A stretch of 37,500 bases of DNA from the NCBI GenBank assembly GCA_902555435.1, contig CACDRL010000006.1, forward strand, positions 1 to 37,500. The letters are read 5' to 3'. Both the position numbers and the translations under genes were made by a program. This document shows, in pieces, positions 20,991 through 37,232 of this stretch. Under the pieces are notes generated by a model that worked only from the letters and a program-made list of their open reading frames with translations, did not search any database and was not told the origin of the DNA. This DNA comes from an uncultured Pelagibacteraceae bacterium (GTDB lineage: Bacteria; Pseudomonadota; Alphaproteobacteria; Pelagibacterales; Pelagibacteraceae). Each line of letters starts with the position of its first letter. Positions within the stretch are counted from its first letter, which is position 1.

Positions 20991-21749
20991 TTAATATTCA
21001 ATAGATTTTTTTGAAATTTTGTAATCTTTAATATTATCTATCTCGAACCATTTTTTTTTGTAATTTTCAACATGAATATCACAAATTTTCTGTCTAATGA
21101 TTAATTGGAATAATGCTGTTATATCTATTTTATTCAAATTTTTTATGTTTTTAAAAAGATGTTTCTTTATATTTTTCCATGACTCTGGATGAATTTTAAA
21201 AACACCCATGTACTGACCTTTGATGTTTTTATAAGAATTTGTTCTACTACCAATTTCTACAAGTTGATTTCTGCTGTTAGTTCTAAAAGTCTCTAAATCT
21301 GATAAAGGATTTACAAATCGTTCTTTCCAATATTTTTTCCAATGTTTGTAACTTAATATAACTATTCCTTTTTTTTTACTTTTATTCAATATTTTTATTG
21401 CTTCTTCCTCATAAAATATATCTGCATAAGAAATAATGCATTGATATTTGGACAATATTTCATCAGCACAAATTAAACTGCCAAAAATATTTGTTGATTT
21501 CCATTTCTTATTTTTAATTTTATCAATTTTTTTAAATTGTTCAAATTGGTTACTTTTATATCCAGTAATAATTATTATTTTTTTAAATCCCAGGTTCTCA
21601 AAATTTTCAAGAACTTTATCAATTAGTTTTTTTTTTCCAATTTTGACAAAAGACTTTGGTTTATTTTTTGTCAAAGTCCCCATTCTAGAACCACGCCCAG
21701 CTGCAAGAATAATAGGAATAATTTTATTTGAATGAGATTTTAAATTCAT
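20991..21749 (-). CDS. probable CTP:phosphoglutamine cytidylyltransferase (Cj1416 type)
   Basis: The 252-residue nucleotidyltransferase has the signature ILAAGRGSRMG at residues 14-24, NKPKSFVKIG at 29-38, and a C-terminal WFEIDNIKDY. Three features go beyond a generic sugar enzyme: ISYADIFY (106-113), the run WKERFVNPLSDLETF (141-155), and IKGQYMGVFK. I recall the same arrangement in Campylobacter jejuni Cj1416, which joins CTP and L-glutamine phosphate to give gamma-glutamyl-CDP-amidate in methyl phosphoramidate synthesis. The other three pathway enzymes lie at 25967-30591. Phosphocholine cytidylyltransferase (LicC) is the nearest alternative. It is transcribed divergently from the amidotransferase gene across a 37-base gap. 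Confidence 0.72.
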   Translation of the reverse strand: MNLKSHSNKIIPIILAAGRGSRMGTLTKNKPKSFVKIGKKKLIDKVLENFENLGFKKIIIITGYKSNQFEQFKKIDKIKNKKWKSTNIFGSLICADEILSKYQCIISYADIFYEEEAIKILNKSKKKGIVILSYKHWKKYWKERFVNPLSDLETFRTNSRNQLVEIGSRTNSYKNIKGQYMGVFKIHPESWKNIKKHLFKNIKNLNKIDITALFQLIIRQKICDIHVENYKKKWFEIDNIKDYKISKKSIEY

Positions 21750-21786
21750 TATAAGAAATGATTATATTAATATATCTTAAAATTCT

Positions 21787-22929
21787 ATGAATTACTGCAA
21801 TCGATGCATAATGCCAGACACTAGACCAGATCAATACCTAAATAGTGAAGGTGTTTGCAATGCATGTATAAGCTTTGATTTTCAAAAAAAAATTGACTGG
21901 AAAAAAAGAAAGTCTGATCTTTTTAAAATTATTAGTGAAAAAAAATTAGATAAAAGTAAATGGAATTGTGTAGTTCCAGGTAGCGGAGGTAAGGATAGCA
22001 CTTACCAAATAATTAGAGCCAAAGAGTTAGGTTTAAACCCAGTTTTTGTTACAGCTTCAACTTGTGATTTGTCGGAAGTAGGAAGAAATAATTTAGAAAA
22101 TATTAAAAAAATTGGATTTGATGTAGTAGAAATTTCTAACAACTCAAAAATTAGAGCTAAAATTAATAAAATTGGACTTGAACTACTAGGAGATATCTCC
22201 TGGCCCGAACATGTTTCTATTTTTACTGCCCCAGTAAAGTTTGCTTTAGCTTATAATATTCCTTTAATTTTATGGGGAGAAAATCCTCAATTAGAATACG
22301 GTGGTCCTGAGGAGTCCTTAAATAATAGTATTTTAGATCAAAACTGGATGGAGGAGTTTGGGGGACTCATTGGATTTAGAGTATCAGATTTAATTGAAAA
22401 TCATGGCTTTAAAAAACATGAATTAGAAATTTATAACTATCCATCAAAAGAAATATTAAGAGAAAAATCTATTTTAGGTATTTTTCTTGGATATTATGAA
22501 CGATGGGATTCTTTAAGAAATTTTGAAATTTCAAAAAATAATGGTTTCAAGGAGTATGAGCAAAATTTAGAGGGTTGTTATTTCAATTTTGAAAAAATTG
22601 ATAATTATCAGCATGGTATTCATGATTATTTTAAATATCTTAAGTTTGGATTTGCAAGAGCAACTGATCAATTATCTTATATGATAAGAAGAGGTAAAAT
22701 AGATAGAAACAAAGGTTTAAGCTTAGCAAAAAAACTTGAAGGTAAATATCCAAAATCATATATGGGAAAACCCTTAGATAAAATTTTATCAAAGATTGGT
22801 ATGTCAGAAAAAGATTTTATCCAGATATGTGATAATTTTACTAATAAGAAAATCTTTAAAACTGACCAGGGTGGTAAATTAGTCAAAGATGATGATGGCT
22901 CATTGATAAAATTAAGATATGACAACTAA
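21787..22929 (+). CDS. N-acetyl sugar amidotransferase (WbpG/PseA/WbuX family)
   Basis: The 380-residue enzyme converts an acetamido group on a sugar to an acetamidino group, using ammonia from a HisH partner. Its N-terminus has two CxxC pairs (Cys4/Cys7 in YCNRCIMPDTRP and Cys24/Cys27 in GVCNAC), the hallmark of this family, followed by the PP-loop ATP pyrophosphatase signature VPGSGGKDS at 63-71. WGENPQLEYGG is a further conserved block. The gene overlaps hisH by 11 bases and is followed by hisF, the arrangement known from Pseudomonas aeruginosa O-antigen loci. With pseI in the window, an acetamidino-nonulosonic acid is a likely product. Confidence 0.92.
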   Translation: MNYCNRCIMPDTRPDQYLNSEGVCNACISFDFQKKIDWKKRKSDLFKIISEKKLDKSKWNCVVPGSGGKDSTYQIIRAKELGLNPVFVTASTCDLSEVGRNNLENIKKIGFDVVEISNNSKIRAKINKIGLELLGDISWPEHVSIFTAPVKFALAYNIPLILWGENPQLEYGGPEESLNNSILDQNWMEEFGGLIGFRVSDLIENHGFKKHELEIYNYPSKEILREKSILGIFLGYYERWDSLRNFEISKNNGFKEYEQNLEGCYFNFEKIDNYQHGIHDYFKYLKFGFARATDQLSYMIRRGKIDRNKGLSLAKKLEGKYPKSYMGKPLDKILSKIGMSEKDFIQICDNFTNKKIFKTDQGGKLVKDDDGSLIKLRYDN

Positions 22930-23539
22930 GGTCGCCATAATTAATTATGGAATAGGAAACATAAGATCCTTATACAATAGCCTAAAGAAATTGAATGTTG
23001 AGGTAGAAATAATTTTAAATCCAGAATTAATTTTCAAATTTAATAAAGTTTTTTTACCAGGTGTTGGATCTTATAAGGATGCTATTCAACTAATAAAAAA
23101 AATAGGATGGGAAAAATCTATTAAAGATTTTTCTTCTAATAAAAATAATAAATTATTTGGTATCTGTGTTGGGATGCAAATTTTAAGTACCTATGGATAT
23201 GAACATGGAAAATCAGATGGATTAGATATAATTAAGGGTGATGTCGAGCATATGTATAAACAAGGTTGTGATTTAAAATTACCTCATATTGGATGGAATA
23301 GTATAAAAATTTTAAATAAAAATTTAATAACTGAAAACTTACCTAATGATTCAGATTTTTATTTTGTAAATAGTTATTCATTTAAAATTGTCAATTCTGA
23401 TCAATTAATTGCAACCACAAAGTATGGTATAGAATTTCCATCAATAATAAATAAAGATAATGTATTTGGCACACAGTTTCATCCTGAAAAAAGTTCCAAT
23501 GCTGGAATGCAAATCTTAAAAAATTTTATAAATGCTTAA
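22919..23539 (+). CDS. hisH: HisH-type glutaminase subunit dedicated to the sugar amidotransferase
   Basis: This 206-residue class I glutaminase releases ammonia from glutamine. The nucleophile is Cys83 in GICVGMQ, and His188 with Glu190 in TQFHPEKS complete the triad. The oxyanion-region PGVGSYKDA block is present. It overlaps both neighbours (11 bases with the amidotransferase, 8 with hisF), and no other histidine-biosynthesis gene lies nearby. It therefore most likely supplies ammonia for glycan amidine formation rather than for histidine synthesis, as in the P. aeruginosa HisH2 case. Confidence 0.9.
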   Translation: MTTKVAIINYGIGNIRSLYNSLKKLNVEVEIILNPELIFKFNKVFLPGVGSYKDAIQLIKKIGWEKSIKDFSSNKNNKLFGICVGMQILSTYGYEHGKSDGLDIIKGDVEHMYKQGCDLKLPHIGWNSIKILNKNLITENLPNDSDFYFVNSYSFKIVNSDQLIATTKYGIEFPSIINKDNVFGTQFHPEKSSNAGMQILKNFINA

Positions 23540-24296
23540 GGTAAGAATAATTCCCATAATGCTTTGGAACGGCACAACCCTTGTTAAAGGGAATAAATTT
23601 GAAAATGAAAAACGTTCAGCTGGATCACCTCTAACAACAATAAAAATCTATAATTCGAGAGATGTGGATGAAATATTTTTTTTTGATATTTCTAGAAATA
23701 ATAATACGATTGATAAAGACTTCATATTAAGTATGACTGATTGCGTTACTGTTCCAATAGCTATTGGAGGTGGAATTGAAAAAATCTCTCAAATGAATGA
23801 TCTTTTTGAATATGGAGCAGATAAAATTGTAATTAATAGTATCATTTTTAAAGATCGAAATATAATTAATGAAGCTTCAAAAAGATTTGGCTCTCAGGCA
23901 ATTACGGTTTCTATTGATGTAAGAAAAATTAATAATAATTACGAATGTTTTTATAACTTAGGTAAAATTAAATCGAATTTAAAGTTTAAAAACTTACTCA
24001 CTGAGTGTGTTGATAGAGGTGCGGGTGAGATAGTAATAAATTCTATTGATCATGATGGTTTAATGAATGGATATGATAATGAATTAATTAAAATTACATC
24101 ATCTTTAGTAAACGTTCCTGTGGTTGCCTCTGGTGGAGCTGGTAATTACGATCACTTCTATGAAGCATATAAAAATGGTGCCGATGCTTTTGCAGCAGCA
24201 AGTATCTATCATTTTACGGAACATACGCCTGCTAAGGCAAAAAAATATCTTCTTAAAAAAGAAGTTCCAATTCGTGAAAATTTTATTATAGAATAA
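23532..24296 (+). CDS. hisF: HisF-like cyclase subunit, glycan-dedicated form
   Basis: The 254-residue TIM barrel is related to imidazole glycerol phosphate synthase subunit HisF. GGGIEK, VINSI, VSIDVRK, INSIDHDG and VASGGAG mark the barrel. The catalytic Asp11 of true HisF (PCLDVKDG) is replaced by Leu11 (PIMLWNG), while the second catalytic Asp in VSID is kept. Loss of Asp11 should abolish cyclase activity, so the protein probably serves as an ammonia channel or scaffold between HisH and the amidotransferase. It overlaps hisH by 8 bases and precedes the GNAT gene by 7 bases. Confidence 0.88.
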   Translation: MLKVRIIPIMLWNGTTLVKGNKFENEKRSAGSPLTTIKIYNSRDVDEIFFFDISRNNNTIDKDFILSMTDCVTVPIAIGGGIEKISQMNDLFEYGADKIVINSIIFKDRNIINEASKRFGSQAITVSIDVRKINNNYECFYNLGKIKSNLKFKNLLTECVDRGAGEIVINSIDHDGLMNGYDNELIKITSSLVNVPVVASGGAGNYDHFYEAYKNGADAFAAASIYHFTEHTPAKAKKYLLKKEVPIRENFIIE

Positions 24297-24303
24297 TAAA
24301 TGA

Positions 24304-24927
24304 ATGGGACAAATAAATATTAAAAAAACAAATATATCTGACAGTAATAAATATTTTACTATTCGAAACAGTTCTAAAAATAGAAAAAATTCTTTAAATA
24401 CATCTAAAATAAAAATTGAAGATCACAACAAATGGTTTATTAAAAATTATAAAAATCAATATTATTTTACATGTTATAGAGGAAAATCAAAAATTGGTTA
24501 TATTAGAGGGGACTTAATAGGTGATACAATAATTGTATCAATAGCTTTAGAAACTCAAAGCCAAAATAAAAATATTGGAACTCAGTGTTTAAAATTATTT
24601 GAAAAAAAAATAAAAGATAATTGTATACTAATTGCAAAAATTAAAAAAAAAAACCTCATTTCAATTCGTTTTTTTGAAAAAAATGGCTTTAGTGAACTGA
24701 ATTCTAAAAAAAATATAGTTACTTTTTATAAAATAAAAAATAATTCAACTAATTTTTACTTAGATGCAATCAATGAAATTGAAAAAGTAAGAAAAAAAAA
24801 CAACATTAATTGGATGAATATACTACGTATTGCTTTCAAAAATAGTCCTAAGGAAACATCAAAAGTTTTTAAACAAATACATTTGAGTGATGGAAAAATA
24901 AGCAAGCTTTCAAGAAAACTATTTTAA
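24304..24927 (+). CDS. GNAT-family N-acetyltransferase, PseH-like
   Basis: The 207-residue protein shows a GNAT fold. There is an N-terminal IRNSSKNRKNS segment and HNKWFIKN, as in PseH-type sugar acetyltransferases. KIGYIRGD and an acetyl-CoA loop region QNKNIGTQCLKLFE follow, then RFFEKNGF (motif B). PseH acetylates the 4-amino group produced by PseC, and pseC, pseI and pseF homologues are all in the window, so this is the likely PseH equivalent. Residues beyond about 150 form an extension I do not recognise. Its stop overlaps the stop of pseI in a shared TTAA. ATG 24304 is chosen because the ATG at 24300 opens a frame that closes at once. Confidence 0.75.
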   Translation: MGQINIKKTNISDSNKYFTIRNSSKNRKNSLNTSKIKIEDHNKWFIKNYKNQYYFTCYRGKSKIGYIRGDLIGDTIIVSIALETQSQNKNIGTQCLKLFEKKIKDNCILIAKIKKKNLISIRFFEKNGFSELNSKKNIVTFYKIKNNSTNFYLDAINEIEKVRKKNNINWMNILRIAFKNSPKETSKVFKQIHLSDGKISKLSRKLF

Positions 24928-25970
24928 GAATTTAAATCTTTTTTTTTCAAGGGTGTTGCATAACTTATATTTCTTTTTGCAACTTTACCTAATATTTTTT
25001 TATAGTATTTTGGCTCAAGACCATAATTGGGCCTTATGACTTTAAGATTTTTTTCAGAAAACAATTCGCCTTTCTTTATATCTTTTTTAGCATAAATTGA
25101 TCTTTTAAAAACTTTATGTCTTTTTTCAGATTTTGTTAAACCATAATATGTTTTTCCTAAGCTTAACCAAGCATTTTTTGACTCTTTCACGAGAAGATTA
25201 AAATCATCGGGATCCATAGAAAAAATATCATCTAATCCACCTGCAGTTTTATCTAACGTAAAATGTTTCTCAATTATACTGGCTCCATAAGAAATTGCAG
25301 AAATTGCTGCACCTATCCCAGGTGTATGGTCACTCAAACCAATTTCTATTTTAAATTTTTTTCTTAAATCAATAATTGTTTTTACATTGCTTTCTTCAAT
25401 TTTAGCTGGGTATGAACTAGTGCATTGCAGAAAAGCAAAGTTATTAAATTTTTTATTTTTTAAAAATTTATACAAATAAATTATTTCATTATATGTGGTT
25501 GCTCCTAGAGATATAATTACAGGTTTTTTTTTTGAAATTACCTTTTCAATCAATGGAAAATGATTATTTTCGAATGAAGCTATTTTAAAAGCAGGGACTT
25601 TAAATTTACTTAAAAAATCAACTGATTCTTCATCAAAAGGTGTGCTGAAACAGATAATATCATTTTTTTTTGCTTCATTAAAAATTTCCTTATAATAACT
25701 TATTGGAAGTGCACCTTTTTTATATAAATCAAATAAGCTTTTTTTATACCACAAACTTTTTTTATCATTGATAACAAATTGAGATTTGTCAGAGTCTAAA
25801 GTTAAAGACTCTGGTTTATAAGTTTGTAATTTTATTGCATCGACGCCAACTCTTTTGGCTTCTCTAACTAATTTTAAAGTTCTTTTAATACTATTATTGT
25901 GGTTAGCTGATATTTCTGCAATTATAAAAGGTGGATGATTAATTGAAATTTTTTTATTGTATATTTTCAT
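24924..25970 (-). CDS. pseI: pseudaminic acid synthase (NeuB family)
   Basis: The enzyme condenses PEP with a 6-deoxy-diacetamido-hexose to form the nine-carbon nonulosonic acid. The 348-residue protein has the NeuB barrel (about 1-280) and a C-terminal SAF/antifreeze-like domain (about 285-345). FIIAEISANHNNS, KLQTYKPESLTL, FSTPFDEESVDFL, GLSDHTPGIG and EKHFTLDKTAGGLDDIFSMD follow the PseI rather than the NeuAc or LegI pattern, particularly the GGxDxxFS block. It is the last gene of the 34115-24924 operon and overlaps the amidohydrolase gene by four bases. A related nonulosonic acid cannot be excluded. Confidence 0.9.
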   Translation of the reverse strand: MKIYNKKISINHPPFIIAEISANHNNSIKRTLKLVREAKRVGVDAIKLQTYKPESLTLDSDKSQFVINDKKSLWYKKSLFDLYKKGALPISYYKEIFNEAKKNDIICFSTPFDEESVDFLSKFKVPAFKIASFENNHFPLIEKVISKKKPVIISLGATTYNEIIYLYKFLKNKKFNNFAFLQCTSSYPAKIEESNVKTIIDLRKKFKIEIGLSDHTPGIGAAISAISYGASIIEKHFTLDKTAGGLDDIFSMDPDDFNLLVKESKNAWLSLGKTYYGLTKSEKRHKVFKRSIYAKKDIKKGELFSEKNLKVIRPNYGLEPKYYKKILGKVAKRNISYATPLKKKDLNS

Positions 25971-26569
25971 TTTTTATTAAAAAAAGATTTAGCTATTTTA
26001 ATTAAAACTTTATTATATTTATTGCCTCTCTCAGGATGCCACATCCAGCCAAGCCAATTAAATTTTTTATGCTTTATAGCTTCAATCTGGTTATCTTCAG
26101 AATAAGCTATCACTTCAAAATTTTTCCCCAATTTATTTATTCCATAGTCATGAAAGCTATTAACTTTTAATGGATAATAATAATTACTATTAATTTTATG
26201 GTTAATTCGAACATGGTTTTTTACTTTTTTCAAAGAACCACCTTCAAAAACATTCATGAATTGCATACCATGACATATTCCAAGAAGTGGAATTTTCTTA
26301 CTCTTAGAAATTTCAATTAATTTTTTTTCAATTTTATATCTTAAAGAATTTTTATTTATATTGTTCCCTCCGCTCAACAATATACCTTTAAATTTAAAAT
26401 TTTTTTGTTTTAAAAAATAATTTAATGTTTTTATATCTGAAACCAAAAGGGGATTAAATCCTAATTTTAAAACCCAATCTATAAGTTTTACATCTATGCA
26501 AAACCTTAATTCTTTTTTGTTATAAAAATAATCCTGACGCATAGATATTAATATAAATTTATTTTTCAT
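25967..26569 (-). CDS. probable gamma-glutamyl-CDP-amidate hydrolase (Cj1417 type)
   Basis: This 200-residue class I glutaminase-like hydrolase has the nucleophile Cys99 in LLGICHGMQ and His178/Glu180 in MWHPER, with LSGGNN at 65-70. It lacks a synthetase partner. The start (SMRQDY), KNHVRINH, VNSFHDYGI and WLGWMWHPER resemble C. jejuni Cj1417, which cleaves gamma-glutamyl-CDP-amidate to glutamate and cytidine diphosphoramidate. Generic annotation would call it a gamma-glutamyl-GABA hydrolase. It lies 3 bases from the dikinase gene and overlaps pseI by four bases. The immediate dikinase neighbour is the strongest contextual support for the phosphoramidate role. Confidence 0.8.
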   Translation of the reverse strand: MKNKFILISMRQDYFYNKKELRFCIDVKLIDWVLKLGFNPLLVSDIKTLNYFLKQKNFKFKGILLSGGNNINKNSLRYKIEKKLIEISKSKKIPLLGICHGMQFMNVFEGGSLKKVKNHVRINHKINSNYYYPLKVNSFHDYGINKLGKNFEVIAYSEDNQIEAIKHKKFNWLGWMWHPERGNKYNKVLIKIAKSFFNKK

Positions 26570-26572
26570 AAT

Positions 26573-28909
26573 TTATTGTTCTCTTATTAACAAATTTTTA
26601 CAATTAAGATTTATCTTATTAGCTAATTTAATTTTTTCAAATAAAGCATCTCCACAACCAATCGCTGCGGGAATATTTAATTCATTACATCTTATGGTCA
26701 TATGAGAATTAGCTCCACCATATTTTGTTATTAAACCATTTATTTTAAAACTGAAAATAAAATCAAAGCCAGGGTCAGCATTTTCTAATAATATTATTTT
26801 ATTGTCTAAATTATTTTCTATTTTGTTTTTTAAATATAAAATTTTAGAAGTAACATTTTGATCAGTTACAAAATTGGGTATACTTACTACCGAAGCACCA
26901 ACGAAGGCATTTTCTTTTTCAACAATAATTTCCGGCAGTTTAATTATTTTATTTAATTCTGATTCTTTAATATTTTTATTTATTTTATTTTGAATAATTT
27001 TTTTTGGAGAATTATGTAAATTAATTAATTGATCTATTGTTAAATTTTCAATTTCTTTAACTTTTAATTTTTTCTTTTTTGAAAAGTATATTATTTTTTC
27101 AAGTATTACATTTACACTTTTTGTAAAAATAAATTTTGCATACTCTCTAGATTTGATTGAAGTCTCAATATATTCAAATAACTGATTCACACTTAAATTT
27201 ATTTTCTTTTTTACAAGCAACTTTTGAATTTTAATATTTTTTAATTTTGAAATACTAAATTTTTTATGTTTTAATACAGAATTTACATCATCATTAAGTA
27301 AGACTTTTTTGTCCATTTTAGAATAGTTATTCGACTTTATGTCATAAGTGCCAGCACGCAAATGCCCATATTTGTTTATAAAGCTTTTATAAGATAATTT
27401 TTTTTTTTTTAATTGAACTTGATCATTTAAAAAATCTGTTGTGATAGTTGAAAAAGATCTCATAAAATTTTCCACATCTACTTCATTTAAAACTTTTACC
27501 TCTTTTAAAGAAATTAATATATCCTTAGCAATAAATCCGTGTCTTGCTAAAATTGAAAAAGGTATAATACCTAATTTTTTTAGATCTTTAATTATTCTTC
27601 TAATCGAAACAACACTAAATTTTTTATTATAGTAACTATTTCTTTGTAATTTATCCAAAATTTCAATTTTATTTAAATTATATTTTATGCTTCCATAACT
27701 TTTATGTTTTAAATTTAGGGTAAATATATGAATTAATTTTTTTTCTATTTCATGAAAATTTTTTTTATATCCTAAGTCAGCTAACTTTTTTTGAATTTGA
27801 AAGGAAAAACAAGTTGGAAAAAGATTGAATTCAATTTTATCATGAAAAGAAGGATTAACTTTTAATTTTAGGATACTTTTATCTATCAATTCATTTGAAA
27901 TCATTTTGTTTAAATTTTCAGGTAATAAAGAATTTAAACTTTTTCTAATATCGATGTAAGGTCTGCCAGCAAAACTCTGCATTAGTGAGCTGTCTTTAAA
28001 GTATTTATAGCCCATTTTTTTCCTTGCGGTTAACCAGGATTTATTTGTAATTAATTTAGAATAAAGGCTATAACTCAATTTTGACGGAAACTGACCAATC
28101 ATCTCAGCAGGATTCCAGTCTGACATTTGACTAAACATTGTTGTTTTACCACATAATTCAGATTTATTATTTTTGTTAAGTGAGTTTTTAATATTATTAA
28201 ATTCTAAATTTAGTTTTTTGTTTAAATTCTTTGTTACAAATCTTTTTTTTAAAGCTTTTTTTAATACTATGGGTCTTACTTGAAATAAATACAAATGATT
28301 TTTTTTAGTTAAACAAAATTCAATATCGAGAGGGACGGTAAAAAAATTTTCAATTTCCTTTGTTGCTTTTATTATTTTTTTAAATCTATCAGATCTTAAA
28401 AGAAAATATTTTGTTTTATAAATATATAAAGTTTTATTTGAATATGCTGAGTTTCCTGAAGTAACTGTATCTGTTCTACCTGTAACATCATCATAATTAA
28501 TAGTGTAATAATTTTGGAAACCTAAATTATCCCCTGTGAAAATAACACCACTCATTTTAATTTCTTGTATCATCTCTTGAATCAAAATTTGTTGATTATG
28601 AATATTATTAATTTTTTTTTTATAACTTTTAATAATTTTATTAATTGATTCTTTTATTTTATTATTATCTTTAGAATTAATATTTAAAATTGATTCAAAA
28701 GCTCCAGCAGCTGAGGTTTTTTTTGTATCCTCAAAAGTCGTGGATGATCTAATTATTATTTTTTTTTTAAATTTTTTTTTAATTTTACTAATTATATTCT
28801 CTTTTTTATTCGTCCATTCAGAAACACTAAAAATTATTGATTTTGGTGTTAAAAATTTTTCGATTTTACCTTCTAAGTTTTTTAATGTATTTGCCTTAGT
28901 ATCAAGCAT
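26573..28909 (-). CDS. probable L-glutamine kinase (dikinase, Cj1418 type)
   Basis: The 778-residue dikinase would be labelled PEP synthase, but its domain order differs. An ATP-binding domain occupies about 1-220 (RSSTTFED 54-61, AAGAFES 67-73, FQVRPI 209-214). A large middle domain carries SDWNPAE (263-269), GRPYIDIR (315-322) and HDKIEFN. The swivelling phosphohistidine domain is at the very C-terminus (GGANSHMT with His736, then NIPAAIG). There is no PEP/pyruvate TIM barrel. This layout, and the DWNPAE and PYIDxR blocks, match C. jejuni Cj1418. That enzyme phosphorylates the amide nitrogen of L-glutamine, giving AMP and phosphate, as the first step to methyl phosphoramidate. It overlaps the SGNH gene by 8 bases. 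Confidence 0.83.
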   Translation of the reverse strand: MLDTKANTLKNLEGKIEKFLTPKSIIFSVSEWTNKKENIISKIKKKFKKKIIIRSSTTFEDTKKTSAAGAFESILNINSKDNNKIKESINKIIKSYKKKINNIHNQQILIQEMIQEIKMSGVIFTGDNLGFQNYYTINYDDVTGRTDTVTSGNSAYSNKTLYIYKTKYFLLRSDRFKKIIKATKEIENFFTVPLDIEFCLTKKNHLYLFQVRPIVLKKALKKRFVTKNLNKKLNLEFNNIKNSLNKNNKSELCGKTTMFSQMSDWNPAEMIGQFPSKLSYSLYSKLITNKSWLTARKKMGYKYFKDSSLMQSFAGRPYIDIRKSLNSLLPENLNKMISNELIDKSILKLKVNPSFHDKIEFNLFPTCFSFQIQKKLADLGYKKNFHEIEKKLIHIFTLNLKHKSYGSIKYNLNKIEILDKLQRNSYYNKKFSVVSIRRIIKDLKKLGIIPFSILARHGFIAKDILISLKEVKVLNEVDVENFMRSFSTITTDFLNDQVQLKKKKLSYKSFINKYGHLRAGTYDIKSNNYSKMDKKVLLNDDVNSVLKHKKFSISKLKNIKIQKLLVKKKINLSVNQLFEYIETSIKSREYAKFIFTKSVNVILEKIIYFSKKKKLKVKEIENLTIDQLINLHNSPKKIIQNKINKNIKESELNKIIKLPEIIVEKENAFVGASVVSIPNFVTDQNVTSKILYLKNKIENNLDNKIILLENADPGFDFIFSFKINGLITKYGGANSHMTIRCNELNIPAAIGCGDALFEKIKLANKINLNCKNLLIREQ

Positions 28910-30089
28910 GGTTTAATTCAATTTCAATTTTATTCGTAACAATTCTGTTCCCATAAGCTGTTAAATGACCACCATGTTCTTCATCTAAATAAATTTTATT
29001 TATATTTTTTTTTGATAAAAATTCAGTTAAATCAATTATTTTTATATCCTTTATTGAGCTAAAAAAGCTACAATAATAATTTTTCCTCTGTCTAAAGAGC
29101 TCAATATCTCTTTTTTGTGGAAAAATTACAATTACAGGTATTGAATTTTTTTTTTGTGTATTTTTTTTGAATTTTTTTATTAATAATTTAAATAATGTTG
29201 TGCTTTGTTTGTCTATGTAAAGTTTATTGGCACTCTCTATATTGCTAGAATAATAAAGTGGAAAAAGATATTTTTTTTTATCTTTTTCCTTTTTAAATGG
29301 AAAAGATAAAATTTTTATAAACAATTTACAATTAAAATTAAAATTTCTAAAAAATGAAATTATATAGAGACTTCGAAACTGAAATTTTTTAAATTTTTTT
29401 TGATAAAAGATATCTTTTTTTGAAACAGATTCTATAATTTTAGAAATTTTTTCTTTTTCAAAATTTTTAATATTTTTTATAGGATTTTTTCTATACTTTA
29501 ACTTTTTTTTCTCAATATAAAAACTAGGCTTAAATCCATAAATATTTCCAAATTCTAAATAATGTTTCCATATTGAATTTATTCTGTTTATAGTTTCCGG
29601 CACTACACCAATAATTGTATATATTGAATTTTTTTTTTTATTTATTTCATGCCTAAGCAGAGATTGATCAAAGCCATAATTACCCACTCCATAATTTATT
29701 ACATGACAATTCAATTTTTTTGACAATATCTCTGTCCAAACTTGTTCATCTTGAACATAACGTCCAAAAACAAATGAATCACCGTATGCTTCAATCTTCT
29801 TTGCAAGGTTACTATACTTAGATTTTCTTGCTCCCAATTTATCTATAGAAAATTTTGTTTTTTTTTTATTTTTATCATGAAAATCAGTAATATTGGGTCT
29901 TTTCAACCAACCAAGTCTTCTATCATAACTTGATCTGAAAAAACTATCTATATTCTTCTTTTTAAAATTTGGAAATTCATCATTTTTGGTAATTAGCCAT
30001 TGAAAATTTTTTTTATAATGTTGAATAAAAAAATACAAAGATAGTTCTAAAATTAAAATAAAAAAAACGAAATATAATAAATTATACAT
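28902..30089 (-). CDS. SGNH/GDSL hydrolase-like protein with N-terminal anchor
   Basis: The 395-residue protein has one N-terminal hydrophobic helix (about residues 3-22) and then an SGNH-like domain, probably outside the cytoplasm. Block I is YGDSFVFG (Ser105). Block II is NYGVGNYG (132-139). The C-terminal DEEHGGHLTAYGN supplies Asp369 and His372 or His375. Block III, normally GxND, is not clear and may be GVVPETIN. It is coupled to the CysC-like kinase (8-base overlap) and the dikinase (8-base overlap), so it belongs to the same functional unit. It could acylate, deacylate or otherwise modify the glycan; a phosphoramidate-related role is speculation. Confidence 0.72.
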   Translation of the reverse strand: MYNLLYFVFFILILELSLYFFIQHYKKNFQWLITKNDEFPNFKKKNIDSFFRSSYDRRLGWLKRPNITDFHDKNKKKTKFSIDKLGARKSKYSNLAKKIEAYGDSFVFGRYVQDEQVWTEILSKKLNCHVINYGVGNYGFDQSLLRHEINKKKNSIYTIIGVVPETINRINSIWKHYLEFGNIYGFKPSFYIEKKKLKYRKNPIKNIKNFEKEKISKIIESVSKKDIFYQKKFKKFQFRSLYIISFFRNFNFNCKLFIKILSFPFKKEKDKKKYLFPLYYSSNIESANKLYIDKQSTTLFKLLIKKFKKNTQKKNSIPVIVIFPQKRDIELFRQRKNYYCSFFSSIKDIKIIDLTEFLSKKNINKIYLDEEHGGHLTAYGNRIVTNKIEIELNHA

Positions 30090-30591
30090 TTTTTTTAATT
30101 AATTTTTTTATCAAACTTAAATTTTTTTTTAACGAATATTCTTCAAAATTATTTGAAATTTTTAAATCGAAATTTTTGGGACATTTATATTCTATATCTA
30201 TTCCAACAACATTTTTATTCACTTTTCCTTGTTTGAAATATATATTTTTATTATTTCTTTCTTTTAAGGTTGATATCGGTACATCAATAAAAATTTCATA
30301 ATATTCATTTATATTTTTTCTATTCCATTCAAGCCAATAAGGAAAAAGTGAGAGTACTGGAACAATAACATTAATTTTATTTTTACTTAGAAAGTGGGTC
30401 AACTTAGAAATTCTAGAAGCATTTGTGTTTCTATCTTCAATTGAAAATCCCAGATCATTATCAAAGACATTTCTTATTACATCGCCATCTAAAATTATAA
30501 ATTCTCCAAAATCATTTTTAAGTTCCTCTTTAAGTTTCAAACTTAAAAAACTTTTGCCGGCACCTGAAAGACCTAAAATCCAAATTACCAT
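30082..30591 (-). CDS. CysC-like kinase, probable cytidine diphosphoramidate kinase (Cj1415 type)
   Basis: The 169-residue P-loop kinase of the adenylylsulfate kinase family has Walker A GLSGAGKS at residues 7-14, LDGDVIR at 34-40 and LGFSIEDR at 47-54. The ISPYR substrate segment of PAPS-making CysC is absent; the equivalent stretch reads VPVLSLFPYWLEWNR (77-91). No ATP sulfurylase gene is in the window. In C. jejuni the CysC-like Cj1415 phosphorylates the 3'-hydroxyl of cytidine diphosphoramidate, and the company of Cj1416, Cj1417 and Cj1418-like genes points to that reaction. True APS kinase, feeding the nearby sulfotransferase-fold proteins, is the alternative. Confidence 0.75.
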   Translation of the reverse strand: MVIWILGLSGAGKSFLSLKLKEELKNDFGEFIILDGDVIRNVFDNDLGFSIEDRNTNASRISKLTHFLSKNKINVIVPVLSLFPYWLEWNRKNINEYYEIFIDVPISTLKERNNKNIYFKQGKVNKNVVGIDIEYKCPKNFDLKISNNFEEYSLKKNLSLIKKLIKKNV

Positions 30592-30599
30592 AAAATAAA

Positions 30600-31535
30600 T
30601 TAATTATTATTATAAAATTCTTCTAAATTTAATAATTTCTGATATTTTTTTTCACTAATTCTATTTTTAATTTTTTTTAATTTTTTTGTTCGTTCTAAAT
30701 TATTTAAAATTCTTGGTAAATTTTCTTTTTTCATTATTTTATTTGTAAAGCTTGATTTTTTAAGATTTAGAAAATTGCATATCTTATTTATATTATAATC
30801 TGTATTAGTTGCAAAATTATCAAAATTAATTCTCAATATTTTTTTTTTATCTCTAATTCTCTTATATTCACTTATTTCATTCCTTACACACTCATCTACC
30901 ATATCAATTATTATTTCTGTTTTATTTTTTAAATTTTTTTTTTTAAAATTATTATGCAGATAGAAAGGTTTAATATTATTATTTTTAAAAATTAGAGGTA
31001 TCTGACAAAGGATTTGCTTCTCAGCTGCTCCTAAATCAGAATTAATCCACGAATTAACTATATCAATAGGATTACGATGAATATTGATTATTTTTAAATT
31101 TTTAATTTTAAGATTTTTCCAGAATTTATAAAACCAAATGCCATCATGAGCATCAAGAAGCATGTGTGTTCCAATTTTTTGGTGATAAGCTAAAACCTTT
31201 TCTCCTCTTTTTGATGTAATTCTCTTTTTGTATAAATTTGGATTTTTAGACTGATAAACACTAGTTTCATCTTCTACTCTAAAATTTAAATTTCTTCCAA
31301 TAAGCTGCTCATAGTAACTTAAATCTAGTATGTGTTGGCCAAAAAATTTTGCAACTTCTGGATTAATTTTTTTAAAATTATGCAAAATTGATAATTGATC
31401 TAAATAATAAATTTTTCTTAACATCTCTACTTTTGTTAAGCTTGCCACAACAGGTGAAACCATACTTTTTCCAGAAGTATGGGTTCCTGTTACTAAAACT
31501 AAGTTTTTTAAAAAATTTTTTTTAATAAATTTCAT
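30600..31535 (-). CDS. sulfotransferase-fold P-loop protein, copy 2
   Basis: The 311-residue protein starts with a P-loop TGTHTSGKS at 16-24 and has HRNPIDIVNSW at 153-163, the 3'-phosphate-binding motif of sulfotransferases. It shares with the upstream neighbour (31532-32494) a distinct pattern: SGKS followed by PVV/PIV, GRNLN or GRDLN, and the NPID/DPVD block. The pair are therefore diverged paralogues. Sulfotransferases recognise a 3'-phosphorylated nucleotide donor. The donor of the methyl phosphoramidate pathway is also a 3'-phosphorylated nucleotide, so this is a candidate sulfo- or phosphoramidate transferase. It lies 8 bases from the CysC-like gene. Confidence 0.7.
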   Translation of the reverse strand: MKFIKKNFLKNLVLVTGTHTSGKSMVSPVVASLTKVEMLRKIYYLDQLSILHNFKKINPEVAKFFGQHILDLSYYEQLIGRNLNFRVEDETSVYQSKNPNLYKKRITSKRGEKVLAYHQKIGTHMLLDAHDGIWFYKFWKNLKIKNLKIINIHRNPIDIVNSWINSDLGAAEKQILCQIPLIFKNNNIKPFYLHNNFKKKNLKNKTEIIIDMVDECVRNEISEYKRIRDKKKILRINFDNFATNTDYNINKICNFLNLKKSSFTNKIMKKENLPRILNNLERTKKLKKIKNRISEKKYQKLLNLEEFYNNN

Positions 31536-32494
31536 TTTTTTAAATATAAATTTTCTAATTCAATTAATTTTTTTTTAAATTTAGCATTGATATTTTTAAT
31601 GATTATATCTCTTCTCTTGTTGCGGATTAAATCAATATTATTTCTGTTTCCATTCTGATTTTTTATTTCTAATGCGGTAAATCTACTTTTTTTTATATTT
31701 AAAAATTTTTCTATTTTATGAATTTCAATATTAGTTTCTTGTACTAATTTTTCAAATTTTAAAATTAAAATATTTTTTTTATATTTTTTTTTATATTTAA
31801 GATAATTATTCTTTTGTATTTTATACAACCTCTCTAACAAAAAAATCGTTTTTTCATACGAATTATTTAATTTAACATATTCATTTTCAAGTCCCTTACA
31901 CCAAAATGGGTAAGAAATTTTTTTATTAAACTTGAATGCAAGTGTTGTATTTCTTGGATTTGAATAAAATTGTCCATAATATTTCTTTTCTTTCCATTCA
32001 TAAATTAAATCAACAGGGTCTCTTTCAATGAATATAATTTTTGATTTTGGAAAAGATTTAAAAATAAAATTTGGATTGATCAAAACATCATGAAACATTA
32101 CAGGATAATTATTTTGATCTCTTTTTATATCTTTAATTTTTATATCACCCTCTTTAACTGATTTTTCTCTTACAAGGTAAATTTTTTGATTTTTATATTT
32201 AGTTATAGAACTATAATCAAATTTTCTTCTGTTCAAATCTCTGCCTATATTTAAATTATATATTTTTTCGTTATAAATATGCCTAAATAAATATAATGCA
32301 CTTTGATTGTTAATCATTTTTAAATAATTTAAATAGTAGATATTTTCTGCAACCGAGTTACAAATGAACATCTCTGTATTTTTAAATGTTGAGACAATAG
32401 GACATAAAAAACTTTTTCCACTTCTTGTTAGACCTCCTAAAAATATGAGTTTGCCAGTAATAAGGTTTATAATTGGCTTATTTTTTTTTTGCAT
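31532..32494 (-). CDS. sulfotransferase-fold P-loop protein, copy 1
   Basis: This 320-residue protein has the P-loop GGLTRSGKS at 20-28 and ERDPVDLIYEW at 157-167, where sulfotransferases bind the 3'-phosphate of PAPS. IGRDLNRRKFD and the SGKSFLCPIVS start align with copy 2. Its first 17 bases overlap the end of pseF, and both frames run through the same ten-adenine tract. It overlaps copy 2 by four bases. Position between pseF and the CysC-like kinase suggests it modifies the nonulosonic acid or the glycan carrying it. Confidence 0.7.
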   Translation of the reverse strand: MQKKNKPIINLITGKLIFLGGLTRSGKSFLCPIVSTFKNTEMFICNSVAENIYYLNYLKMINNQSALYLFRHIYNEKIYNLNIGRDLNRRKFDYSSITKYKNQKIYLVREKSVKEGDIKIKDIKRDQNNYPVMFHDVLINPNFIFKSFPKSKIIFIERDPVDLIYEWKEKKYYGQFYSNPRNTTLAFKFNKKISYPFWCKGLENEYVKLNNSYEKTIFLLERLYKIQKNNYLKYKKKYKKNILILKFEKLVQETNIEIHKIEKFLNIKKSRFTALEIKNQNGNRNNIDLIRNKRRDIIIKNINAKFKKKLIELENLYLKK

Positions 32495-33158
32495 AAAACT
32501 CAGCTTTTTTCCAATCAGTTAAATTATCAATATCTACCGACTTAGAGTAAGGTAATTCTAAAATATTTGAATTTTCTATAAATACACTCTTTTCTTTTCT
32601 CCATAATTTTTTTGCTCCCCAATAAAATTGACCAGCATCAACATAAATTTTTGGTAGATCTTGAGATCTAGTATTTTTAAAAGAGGATTTAATTAGATTA
32701 AGTTTATTTTTTTTAAAATAAAAGCCTCTTAAATTTGACTTTGGGAGTTTATTTACTGCAAATACAAAACCTTTAAATTTTATTTTTTTTAATAATTTAT
32801 AGCTTTTTGATAAAAATATAGGTTCAATTAATGGTGCTGCTGGAAAAATACAACAAATGTTATTGAAAATAATCTTTTTATTTTCTAAATTTTTAATCTC
32901 AAATTTAATTACATCAATTATTGTGGAATAATTATCTGAGAATTTTGAAGGTCTTGGATATAAAACTTTTGCACCATATTTTGTAGCAACTTTTGCAATT
33001 TTTTCTGAGTCTGTTGATACATAAACCTCTTTAAATAATTTTGACTTAAATGCTGCATCAATTGACCAATATATAATTGGTTTTCCATTAAAAATTTTAA
33101 TATTCTTATTAATTATTCTTTGACTATTTTTTCTAGCAGGTATTATTGCTATATTCAT
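32478..33158 (-). CDS. pseF: CMP-nonulosonic acid (pseudaminic) cytidylyltransferase
   Basis: The 226-residue enzyme activates the nonulosonic acid with CTP. The N-terminus IAIIPARKNSQRIINKNIK (residues 3-21) matches the CMP-sugar synthetase signature PARGGSKRIPxKNIK with G-to-N and K-to-Q changes. VYVSTDSEKIAKVATKYGA, ICCIFPAAPL and a C-terminal VDIDNLTDW are family blocks, and the overall form is closer to PseF than to NeuA. It starts one base after the methyltransferase stop and overlaps the sulfotransferase-fold gene by 17 bases. It is nine kilobases from its pathway partner pseI but in the same operon. Confidence 0.88.
   Translation of the reverse strand: MNIAIIPARKNSQRIINKNIKIFNGKPIIYWSIDAAFKSKLFKEVYVSTDSEKIAKVATKYGAKVLYPRPSKFSDNYSTIIDVIKFEIKNLENKKIIFNNICCIFPAAPLIEPIFLSKSYKLLKKIKFKGFVFAVNKLPKSNLRGFYFKKNKLNLIKSSFKNTRSQDLPKIYVDAGQFYWGAKKLWRKEKSVFIENSNILELPYSKSVDIDNLTDWKKAEFYAKKK
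32481..32490. repeat. 10-base poly-T within the pseF/sulfotransferase overlap
   Basis: Ten T on the plus strand are read as poly-A in both overlapping frames, the end of pseF and the start of the sulfotransferase-fold gene. Losing one A would fuse the two frames. Confidence 0.85.
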
Positions 33159-34115
33159 TTATAGCTTGTGATTAGGTTTTGACAAAAATACAAAATTATC
33201 AGATATTTTTATTAGAAAATTAAATATTTTTTTATCTAACAAAAATTGAAAAATATTATTAAAAAATTTTTTTATAATACTATTTTTTCTTTCAGAAGCA
33301 TATAAAAATGGACCCCCATAAAATTTAATTACTTCAAATTCGTTATTTTCAATTGTATTTTTTAATGAGGAGAATGAGAAAATTCTTTTGTGAATTTTAT
33401 ATTTCCAGCTATTAGATTTTTTATTCATAAAATTCAATTTAAAAAAATTACTATTCTCGTATTTTAGAAAATATTTTTTTAATTTTGATTCAAAAATTAT
33501 GTCTCTAAAAGATAAAGAATATGAGTGCATATATTTTTCATTCGTAAAATACCAAATTAAACATTTAAGTAATTTTCTAAAACTTATTAAATCATTAAGT
33601 GTAAACATATTACCTTGACCAATAATGTAATATCCTTCTTTTTTTAAAACCCTTTTTACCTCTAAAAAATTATTTGAAAGCTTTCCAGCATAATGAATTG
33701 CTCCACAAATTATGACTAAGTCAAAATAATTTTCTTCAAAATTTAATTTTTCTTCCAAACTCCCCTTATAAAAAAAAGCTTGTCCCTTATTTATATTTTC
33801 AGAATAAATTTTCTTTGCATTCTCACATAAATGCTCAGATATATCTATACCGTGATAAATAAACTCTCTATCTAAAATTTTTCCAGCAAGTTCGGCACCT
33901 CCAAAACCTAATTCTAAAATTTTTGAATCTTTTGGTAAATTCAATTCATCCAATAACTTCAACGTTTTTTCTTGTCTTATCCAATAATGTAAATGTGTTT
34001 CAAAATCTGACTCATATGTTTGGCCATGCCATTTTTGTTTTGTATGATCAGAATTCCACCAGGATTTTACTGCCTCCTTATGTTCTTTAAGTAAACCAGT
34101 TTCAAGATCATCCAT
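33159..34115 (-). CDS. class I SAM-dependent methyltransferase, first gene of the operon
   Basis: The 318-residue protein has the SAM loop LELGFGGAE at 68-76, then YHGIDIS and FDLVIICGAIHYAG, a standard class I methyltransferase core. The C-terminal third contains many aromatic and lysine residues and is not recognisable. It directly abuts pseF with no spacer and opens the operon containing the phosphoramidate genes. C. jejuni also has methyltransferases beside its phosphoramidate genes, so O-methylation of phosphoramidate is an attractive role. Methylation of the nonulosonic acid is equally possible. Confidence 0.78.
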   Translation of the reverse strand: MDDLETGLLKEHKEAVKSWWNSDHTKQKWHGQTYESDFETHLHYWIRQEKTLKLLDELNLPKDSKILELGFGGAELAGKILDREFIYHGIDISEHLCENAKKIYSENINKGQAFFYKGSLEEKLNFEENYFDLVIICGAIHYAGKLSNNFLEVKRVLKKEGYYIIGQGNMFTLNDLISFRKLLKCLIWYFTNEKYMHSYSLSFRDIIFESKLKKYFLKYENSNFFKLNFMNKKSNSWKYKIHKRIFSFSSLKNTIENNEFEVIKFYGGPFLYASERKNSIIKKFFNNIFQFLLDKKIFNFLIKISDNFVFLSKPNHKL

Positions 34116-36047: not shown

Positions 36048-37232
36048 ATGGCTAAAAGATTTTTACCGTATAGCAGACAGAGTATTGATAAAGTAGACAT
36101 TAAAAAAATTACAAATGTCTTAAAGTCTGATTTTATTACACAAGGACCAAATATTTTTGATTTCGAAAAAGATTTTGCAAAATATGTAGGAGCCAAATAT
36201 GCTGTAGCATGCGCTACAGGAACAGCTGCATTACATCTTTCCTGTTTGGCACTGGGAATTAATAAAAAATCTAGAATTTTAACCTCTGCAGTTACTTTTG
36301 TTGCATCTGCAAATTGTGCAGAATTTTTAGGAGCAAATGTAGATTTTGTTGATATCGATAAAAATACATATTGTATAAATGTAAATGAATTAGAGAAAAA
36401 ATTAAAACAAAAAAAAATTGATTTAGTAATCCCAGTACACCTTTGTGGACATTCGAGTGAAATGGCCAAAATACATAGACTTAAAAAAAAATATAATTTT
36501 CATATCATAGAAGACTCCTGTCACGCATTAGGTGGGAAATATAATAATTTTAAAGTAGGTTCATGTAAATATTCAGATATCTCTACTTTTAGTTTTCATC
36601 CTGTAAAACCAATAACTACAGCAGAAGGAGGTATGATTACAACTAACGACGAAACAATTTATCAAAAACTATTATTATATAGAACTCATGGTATTCACAA
36701 AAATCCTTTAAAATTTAAAAATAAAAATTTAGCTTTCGATGAGAATAATCAACCGAATAGATGGTACTATGAAATGGATGTATTAGGTTTTAATTATAGA
36801 ATAACAGATTTACAAGCAGCCTTAGGTAAATCTCAATTAAAAAGAATAAATTTATTTACAAAAAAAAGAAATCAAATTGCCAATATATACAATAAAAATT
36901 TTAAAAATTTAAAAAACTTAAAAATACCGTTTAAAAGTAAAAAGGTACTACATGCTTACCACCTTTATACGATACTGGTAGACTTCAAAAAAATAAACTT
37001 ATCGAAAAATAAATTTATGAAATTTTTATTTGAATGTGGTATTGGCTCTCAAGTTTTATATATCCCTGTTTTTCTTCAACCTTATTATAAACGTAAATAT
37101 AATTATAGACCCAACAAATTTCCTGTATCAATGAAATACTATGAACAAGCACTAAGTATTCCTATATTTTATAGTCTCAAAAAAACAGAGCAAAATTTAG
37201 TGATAAAGAAAATAAAAGAACTACTTAGCTAG
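36048..37232 (+). CDS. pseC: UDP-4-amino-4,6-dideoxy-N-acetyl-L-altrosamine transaminase
   Basis: This PLP-dependent aminotransferase puts the 4-amino group on the UDP-keto-sugar precursor of pseudaminic acid. The 394-residue protein follows PseC closely: PYSRQSID at the start, SDFITQGP at 27-34, FVASANCAEFLGA, VDFVDID, the PLP lysine Lys187 in FSFHPVKPITTAEGG, and YRTHGI. PseC normally reads ITTGEGG where this has ITTAEGG. The gene starts one base after the CBS-SDR stop. Its TAG stop shares a CTAG with the stop of the opposing ABC transporter gene. No pseB or pseG homologue is visible in the window. Confidence 0.92.
   Translation: MAKRFLPYSRQSIDKVDIKKITNVLKSDFITQGPNIFDFEKDFAKYVGAKYAVACATGTAALHLSCLALGINKKSRILTSAVTFVASANCAEFLGANVDFVDIDKNTYCINVNELEKKLKQKKIDLVIPVHLCGHSSEMAKIHRLKKKYNFHIIEDSCHALGGKYNNFKVGSCKYSDISTFSFHPVKPITTAEGGMITTNDETIYQKLLLYRTHGIHKNPLKFKNKNLAFDENNQPNRWYYEMDVLGFNYRITDLQAALGKSQLKRINLFTKKRNQIANIYNKNFKNLKNLKIPFKSKKVLHAYHLYTILVDFKKINLSKNKFMKFLFECGIGSQVLYIPVFLQPYYKRKYNYRPNKFPVSMKYYEQALSIPIFYSLKKTEQNLVIKKIKELLS

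Follow-up and report, generated by a model that had tools for sequence, protein, structure and literature searches.

A predicted CDP-amidate pathway in a SAR11 surface-sugar locus with two sulfotransferase-like proteins as likely phosphoramidate transferases

Can a SAR11 bacterium build an activated phosphoramidate donor in a surface-sugar locus and, if so, which proteins would hand the group on? The question is posed by a 37,500-nt window, i.e. the whole stretch of DNA analysed, from a SAR11 host (assembly G000, 94% complete). An earlier note had read four of its genes as the pathway known from Campylobacter jejuni (Cj1418, Cj1416, Cj1417, Cj1415; capsular O-methyl phosphoramidate). This reading is supported by curated models, by the tree and a motif of the kinase, by conservation of the module and by the lack of CysD and ATP sulfurylase. 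We take the four enzyme types to be those of the C. jejuni cytidine diphosphoramidate pathway; likeness was judged by family models, motifs and gene context. Judging from sequence, we propose with a probability of roughly two in three that the four enzymes turn glutamine, ATP and CTP into 3'-phospho-CDP-amidate, and that two sulfotransferase-like proteins likely transfer phosphoramidate to a SAR11 surface glycan.

Gene content and order were observed directly. Nine minus-strand genes are packed over 34115 to 24924 with intergenic gaps of -17 to +8 bp. From 34115 down these are a methyltransferase, PseF, two sulfotransferase-like genes, the kinase, an SGNH-type gene, the dikinase, the amidase and PseI. 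The pathway genes are embedded in a locus with glycosyltransferases, PseI/PseF/PseC and acetamidino genes. The two sulfotransferase-like genes, likely transfer enzymes, had been left out of the earlier note.

Table 1. Features of the window with predicted or candidate functions.
Feature	Position	Strand	Remarks
LIC12162-type transferase	14461-16257		
Predicted CTP:phosphoglutamine cytidylyltransferase	20991..21749	-	NTP transferase family (Pfam); 252 aa
N-acetyl sugar amidotransferase, HisH and HisF-like (acetamidino group)	21787..24296	+	TIGR03573 315 > 203; TIGR01855 212.8 > 105.4; WbuZ 238 < 300
Pseudaminic acid synthase PseI	24924..25970	-	TIGR03586 432 > 340 bits; likely acceptor-sugar pathway
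Predicted gamma-glutamyl-CDP-amidate hydrolase (CDP-amidate release)	25967..26569	-	Best NCBIfam model NF045546; 200 aa
Predicted glutamine kinase (dikinase)	26573..28909	-	ATP-grasp, middle domain, C-terminal phosphohistidine; 778 aa
SGNH-type accessory protein	28902..30089	-	GDSF and GGHL motifs, hydrophobic N-terminus
Predicted CDP-amidate 3'-kinase, CysC-like	30082..30591	-	169 aa; outside CysC clade, no ISP[YF]
Protein 1, sulfotransferase fold, candidate phosphoramidate transferase	30600..31535	-	
Protein 2, sulfotransferase family, candidate second transferase	31532..32494	-	PF00685; Glu for Ser at column 162
Pseudaminic acid cytidylyltransferase PseF	32478..33158	-	TIGR03584 235 > 206 bits
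Methyltransferase, head of gene run	33159..34115	-	Methyltransferase models matched under cut-off only
PseC-type aminotransferase	36048..37232	+	TIGR03588 478 > 424 bits

The ORF list contains all four pathway genes where they had been placed, each on the minus strand and of the length given in Table 1. The motifs named for them are present as well: DWNPAE, PYIDIR and a C-terminal NSHMTIRC in the dikinase, ISYADIFY and WKERFVNPLSDLETF in the cytidylyltransferase; ISPYR is absent from the kinase. The claim that default names mislead was confirmed: Pfam gives PPDK_N/PEP-utilizers, NTP transferase, Peptidase C26 and APS_kinase. The misnaming is not universal, since some JGI homologues (P0003, P0030, P0075, P0084, P0110) are named 'glutamine kinase'. 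In eight plasmid regions the dikinase is annotated as 'PEP-utilizing enzyme' or 'PEP/pyruvate-binding domain-containing protein' (7/8) or as 'pyruvate, phosphate dikinase' (the eighth); its partners are called 'gamma-glutamyl-gamma-aminobutyrate hydrolase family', 'phosphocholine cytidylyltransferase family' and 'adenylyl-sulfate kinase'.

The dikinase scored 740.2 bits (cut-off 501) against NF004508, a curated family which is separate from PEP synthase and rifampin phosphotransferase, carries the name 'hypothetical protein' and presumably includes Cj1418. It scored far lower against PEP synthases (at most 70.5 bits to any such model; TIGR01418 69.7, cut-off 739.75) and rifampin phosphotransferases (rifamycin-inactivating NF041857, 38.9 bits, cut-off 999). 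Because these curated-model scores are far under the cut-offs, both identities were dropped. Pfam listed PPDK_N and C-terminal PEP-utilizers only and no PEP barrel. The predicted structure (pLDDT 88) had rifampin phosphotransferase entries as top Foldseek matches. Of 34 aligned dikinase rows, 33 have letters at the DWNPAE site and 29 of these match it exactly; SHM is conserved in all 31 rows that have letters at its position. Row conservation in the alignments of dikinase loci marks the dikinase and hydrolase motifs as family features, not chance. A PDB sequence search returned no close relative, viral contigs scanned with the dikinase alignment gave none at all, and a scan of named genomes with the single protein matched L022 only and no Campylobacter sequence. 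The family is present in 35/399 genomes of one SAR11 genus, in most cases along with the other module genes, and exceeds the curated cut-off in 17/385 genomes of the class.

For the cytidylyltransferase the best PDB sequence match was CTP:phosphocholine cytidylyltransferase, and the 25 NCBIfam matches listed include no phosphoglutamine-specific curated model. The best of 22 NCBIfam matches of the amidase was NF045546, gamma-glutamyl-CDP-amidate hydrolase, at 112.4 bits and thus under the cut-off of 250; GMP-synthase (61 bits) and PuuD-type models (35 bits) followed. As the earlier note had argued, this is not an ordinary PuuD, an identity dropped because NF008471 (35.2 bits, cut-off 266) stays far under its equivalog cut-off. 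The triad Cys99, His178 and Glu180 is kept in the aligned loci, Cys and HPE in 29/29 rows. Among the matches listed (part at E <= 1e-25), NF045546 was also top for 7/8 amidases of other loci, all under cut-off.

The kinase proved distinct from ordinary APS kinases, again as claimed: in an unrooted tree it falls outside the sulfate-assimilation (CysC) clade with support of 100/98, and ISP[YF] is found in 15/15 CysC-type kinases vs 0/32 dikinase-linked ones. On account of tree position and missing motif, APS kinase was dropped as its identity. It passed the broad subfamily model NF004041, named adenylyl-sulfate kinase (140.7 bits, cut-off 127), and stayed below the APS-kinase equivalog domain TIGR00455 (110.3 bits, cut-off 138.7). 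The dikinase-linked kinases do not form one clade (four label changes in the tree), and the L022 kinase is not a close relative of the window's. CysD and ATP sulfurylase gave no match in the 94% complete assembly; therefore, an ordinary CysC would have no APS to act on. Neither ATP sulfurylase nor above-cut-off CysD was found in 42 SAR11-order genomes (the window's, seven further and 34 more genus members), a set which covers all 35 dikinase-bearing genus members. The sequence evidence points to a CysC-like kinase other than APS kinase, with predicted activity on CDP-amidate. Against this counts L114, in which ATP sulfurylase adjoins a CysC-like kinase without ISP[YF].

Family profile, modelled fold and the P-loop/3'-phosphate motif place proteins 1 and 2 (311 and 320 aa, 30% identity) in the PF00685 superfamily, the Pfam match of protein 2 being 24 bits at a cut-off of 22. 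His130, Arg154 and Pro156 occur in 44/44 homologues and Gly22-Lys23 in 43/44; the invariant His and Arg presumably have the roles they have in known sulfotransferases. At column 162, where known sulfotransferases have a Ser that binds the 3'-phosphate, protein 2 has Glu (20/44 rows), which counts against the proposal. Since no APS source was found, PAPS as donor of both proteins is argued against. Pfam assignments of the best 120 of 201 homologues contained no kinase-sulfotransferase domain fusion. Both proteins would likely move phosphoramidate onto a surface glycan.

By homology, the dikinase would phosphorylate the amide nitrogen of glutamine, and the cytidylyltransferase would join the phosphoglutamine to CMP. 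The amidase would then remove glutamate to yield CDP-amidate, and the CysC-like kinase would add a 3'-phosphate, giving a CTP-derived look-alike of PAPS. A sulfotransferase-fold enzyme may hold this 3'-phosphate and hand phosphoramidate to a hydroxyl group of a sugar, the likely acceptor being a pseudaminic-type polysaccharide, with cytidine 3',5'-bisphosphate as by-product. We infer a capsule modification in the window's organism. More tentatively, and at slightly less than even odds, SAR11 would use this PAPS twin and sulfotransferase-fold enzymes to place phosphoramidate, not sulfate, on surface sugars, and several sulfotransferase-like lineages in genomes without a known PAPS source would be transferases of phosphoramidate (or another 3'-phospho-CDP-X), a reaction class new to the fold.

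Is the module conserved, and are the sulfotransferase-like genes part of it? Among 52 loci, the window's own among them, 47 combine dikinase, amidase and cytidylyltransferase and 31 have all four genes; L068 and L069 are almost the same, and five loci lie no more than 1.5 kb from the end of a stretch. No kinase was seen in the stretch read in 19 loci; of these, L096, L097, L107 and L108 have sulfotransferase-like genes. Such a gene is present in at least 19/52 loci, with neighbour ORFs scanned by choice and a 113-residue fragment (L113) left out; six of the 19 rest on homology to others (L104, L108 and L098, which are under the Pfam cut-off, and L099, L100 and L107) and L056 is weak. Of 69 listed sulfotransferase-homologue clusters on contigs >5 kb, 23 match at least one of 120 listed dikinase matches in exact contig size (control mean 0.27). 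Among 399 genomes the dikinase occurs in 16/29 bearing either sulfotransferase-like family vs 19/370 others (p 1e-11), or in 9/22 vs 19/370 after removal of seven profile-source genomes (p 3e-6); these Fisher tests treat related genomes as independent. In 13/16 genomes (12/15 measured plus G821) both genes lie within 4 kb on one contig, and in 6/9 once the seven source genomes are set aside. Family A6, the second of the two, was picked from dikinase neighbourhoods, so adjacency in its six source genomes reflects selection. The dikinase is absent from 13/29 family-bearing genomes. In L116 and L117, which have no dikinase, a sulfotransferase-like gene adjoins a similar kinase; therefore, the two may work with a different donor. 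Beyond SAR11, L053 has a Sulfotransfer_3 gene that shares 4 bp with the kinase gene, and in L060 such a gene comes after kinase-SGNH; dikinase neighbourhoods of 25 genomes held 5 Sulfotransfer_3 matches (0.37 expected). Sugar loci may be generally rich in sulfotransferases, which would count against linkage.

Of the competing explanations, the weightiest, though unlikely, is that the donor pathway is real and another protein transfers the group, for instance the LIC12162-type protein or a distant Cj1421/Cj1422-like protein elsewhere, the sulfotransferase-like genes being otherwise employed. Both families are missing in 19/35 dikinase-bearing genus members (E 1e-10), and 7/19 kinase-less loci have CDP-glycerol-phosphotransferase-like genes. 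The C. jejuni transferases, in the accessible part of PMC13317227, are listed at 592 and 603 residues, unlike the much shorter proteins 1 and 2. However, sulfotransferase-like genes lie close by in several arrangements, and the 42 genomes offer no PAPS source.

That the donor serves a small molecule or a lipid headgroup instead of a polysaccharide is improbable. In Agrobacterium vitis dikinase, amidase and cytidylyltransferase do have LysE translocators and a CDP-alcohol phosphatidyltransferase as neighbours, with no annotated glycosyltransferase in the 19.8 kb viewed; the window's genes, however, lie inside the sugar locus described above. Least probable of all is ordinary metabolism, in which PEP synthase-like, PuuD-like, LicC-like and APS kinase genes are chance neighbours and two sulfotransferases carry out true PAPS-dependent sulfation. 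The Pfam-level names, the NF004041 score and the sulfotransferase fold would fit, but the curated models, the kinase tree and motif, the 47/52 loci and the missing CysD and ATP sulfurylase speak against it.

The proposed phosphoramidate pathway shares with C. jejuni the surface-sugar setting, and the best curated model of the amidase is named after the Campylobacter enzyme, albeit with a score under cut-off. Unlike there, the host is a free-living SAR11, the cytidylyltransferase gene lies apart from the other three and pseudaminic-type sugar genes are present. With PAPS-dependent sulfotransferases and CysC the window has in common the fold, the P-loop, the invariant His and Arg, a homologous kinase and the logic of a 3'-phosphorylated nucleotide donor; it differs in that its genome yielded no APS source and its kinase, which has no ISP[YF], does not fall in the CysC clade. 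According to an excerpt of PMC3907429, phosphoramidate also occurs on the lipopolysaccharide of Xanthomonas campestris and Shewanella, likewise surface glycans outside Campylobacter. Borg elements, which are archaeal and extrachromosomal, have CTP:phosphoglutamine cytidylyltransferase-like genes, a structure-based hint outside Campylobacter; the description, in the portion available (PMC12660748), has no complete four-gene set. In the accessible text of a review, glutamine kinase is termed C. jejuni-specific, and many C. jejuni phages recognise phosphoramidate (PMC9561416). A literature search, with most subscription papers outside its coverage, found nothing in print on phosphoramidate with Pelagibacter. 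If the proposal is true, a rare chemistry familiar above all from a gut pathogen is also at home in some of the sea's commonest bacteria, as a surface modification in cells for which phosphorus and nitrogen are scarce; it might then matter for phage attachment and for the pool of phosphorus in the sea. For the transferase step this gives a concrete hypothesis, open to tests on purified proteins and on cultured HTCC7211.

The protein between dikinase and kinase gave no Pfam and no NCBIfam match; we take its GDSF and GGHL to be SGNH-type motifs. Homologues are present in the stretches L025, L026, L060, L094, L104 and L110.

The four open reading frames in which the earlier note saw a Campylobacter jejuni-type (Cj1415-Cj1418) route to 3'-phospho-CDP-amidate are present at their positions and on their strands with the motifs ascribed to them, and their default Pfam names are those it had predicted. 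After the present analysis this phosphoramidate-donor pathway is still the best reading. The C. jejuni steps serve as background; the literature drawn on overall is PMC6429109, PMC3907429, PMC12409886, PMC9561416, PMC12660748, PMC13317227 and PMC2217521. The wider genome is SAR11 (1.29 Mb, 24 contigs, 94% complete). New are the spread of the pathway genes, the missing sulfate-activation route, HTCC7211 as a cultured carrier and the proposal that the sulfotransferase-like genes encode phosphoramidate transferases.

Positions of the genes and loci discussed
Feature	Sequence	Position	Strand
Sulfotransferase-domain gene, runs off the start	window	2-766	
Cytidylyltransferase	window	20991-21749	-
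Amidase	window	25967-26569	-
Dikinase (778 aa)	window	26573-28909	-
SGNH-type protein	window	28902-30089	-
CysC-like kinase	window	30082-30591	-
Sulfotransferase-like gene	window	30600-31535	-
Sulfotransferase-like gene	window	31532-32494	-
16S rRNA pieces	L029	5198-6434	
Fused CysC-like kinase	L066	5287-7827	
Dikinase locus, Agrobacterium vitis plasmid	L071	8566-13655	
Three-gene side cassette	L101	13304-15254	
Sulfotransferase-like gene and CysC-like kinase	L116	6096-8006	
Sulfotransferase-like gene and CysC-like kinase	L117	5322-7090	
Dikinase homologue	MT837632.1	673-2952	

Against NCBIfam, the dikinase scored 740 bits with NF004508 (cut-off 501), a curated family apart from PEP synthase and rifampin phosphotransferase; the second-best model reached 70.5 bits. 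Its Pfam domains include a C-terminal phosphohistidine domain, and a PEP barrel was not listed. The six top Foldseek matches of the predicted structure (pLDDT 88) were all rifampin phosphotransferase entries (TM 0.27-0.45). Taken with the NF004508 scores, this indicated an architecture of the rifampin phosphotransferase type in a different family. For the amidase the top NCBIfam model was gamma-glutamyl-CDP-amidate hydrolase, below cut-off (112 vs 250 bits).

The kinase is probably distinct from ordinary APS kinase (CysC), as had been claimed. When 40 kinases were placed in one tree, the 14 CysNC domains and one Sat-linked CysC lay on one side of a branch (support 100/98); the window kinase was outside, among the dikinase-linked ones, which did not form a single clade. 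ISP[YF] was found in 15/15 CysC-type rows and 0/32 dikinase-linked rows, 20 of the 32 having NR at this site. An exception is the kinase of locus L114, which adjoins ATP sulfurylase yet lacks ISP[YF]. The window kinase was over the cut-off of the broad NF004041 (named adenylyl-sulfate kinase) and under that of the APS-kinase equivalog TIGR00455.

Neither CysD nor ATP sulfurylase was found in the window's genome, at 94% completeness, nor in seven further SAR11-order genomes (G005, G029, G002, G011, G074, G107, G528). Among 34 more genus members ATP sulfurylase was found in none and CysD over cut-off in none, with one match of 22.5 bits. In two SAR11 genomes without dikinase (loci L116 and L117) a sulfotransferase-like gene adjoins a CysC-like kinase, and ATP sulfurylase and CysD were not found there either. 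Therefore, another 3'-phospho-nucleotide donor may exist.

Six of 150 relatives and 17 of 385 members of the class carry a protein that exceeds the NF004508 cut-off, the window's genome included each time; 35 of 399 genus members have the dikinase (E 1e-60). PB7211_701 of Candidatus Pelagibacter sp. HTCC7211 is 78% identical to the window dikinase (protein cluster match). We read 52 loci (the window, 43 from genomes and 8 plasmid records) with models built from many of these very loci: dikinase, amidase and cytidylyltransferase occurred together in 47, the complete four-gene set in 31. The amidase match was <=20 bp from the dikinase match in 41 of the 47.

No kinase was seen in 19 of the 52 loci. 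Seven of these have genes resembling CDP-glycerol phosphotransferases: the one in L064 exceeds the Pfam cut-off, those in L067 and L068 fall slightly short of it, L069 shares its protein with L068, and L065, L109 and L112 are assigned by homology to L064. L113 has such a gene too, despite a weak kinase match. On the Agrobacterium vitis plasmid the dikinase, amidase and cytidylyltransferase genes accompany LysE and a CDP-alcohol phosphatidyltransferase; a kinase was not found and sugar genes were not annotated nearby, and the product is perhaps a small phosphoramidate compound. The CDP-glycerol-phosphotransferase-like genes and the Agrobacterium phosphatidyltransferase would be consistent with CDP-amidate serving directly, with no 3'-phosphate added.

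In the window, PseI, PseF and PseC all scored above their model cut-offs, and HisH/HisF-like genes accompany one for an N-acetyl sugar amidotransferase. Therefore, the acceptor is likely part of a pseudaminic-type, acetamidino-bearing glycan. Ten further genes scanned include CDP-hexose genes, one glycosyltransferase and, below its cut-off (200 against 225 bits), a LIC12162-like transferase. Pieces of 16S rRNA lie about 5 kb beyond the window, in keeping with a possible location in HVR2, the SAR11 surface-gene island described in PMC2217521 as lying beside rRNA genes.

The SGNH-type protein had no library match; relatives occur near phosphoramidate genes in HTCC7211 and another alphaproteobacterial family (L060). 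A further sulfotransferase-domain gene lies at the window start. On an Azospirillum lipoferum 4B plasmid a CysC-like kinase is fused to a preceding stretch of about 650 residues that matches nothing in Pfam, with two annotated sulfotransferase-domain genes close by. A faecal (human) 9.5-kb record named Bacteriophage sp., perhaps a bacterial contig, encodes a dikinase homologue of 31% identity. Near the dikinase of several loci (L027, L099-L101, L103, L105) a cassette recurs of a ~198-aa protein, a methyltransferase and a CysC-like kinase. Speculatively, the methyltransferase might methylate the phosphoramidate, and the ~198-aa protein, a histidine phosphatase in L101, might recycle the by-product cytidine 3',5'-bisphosphate.
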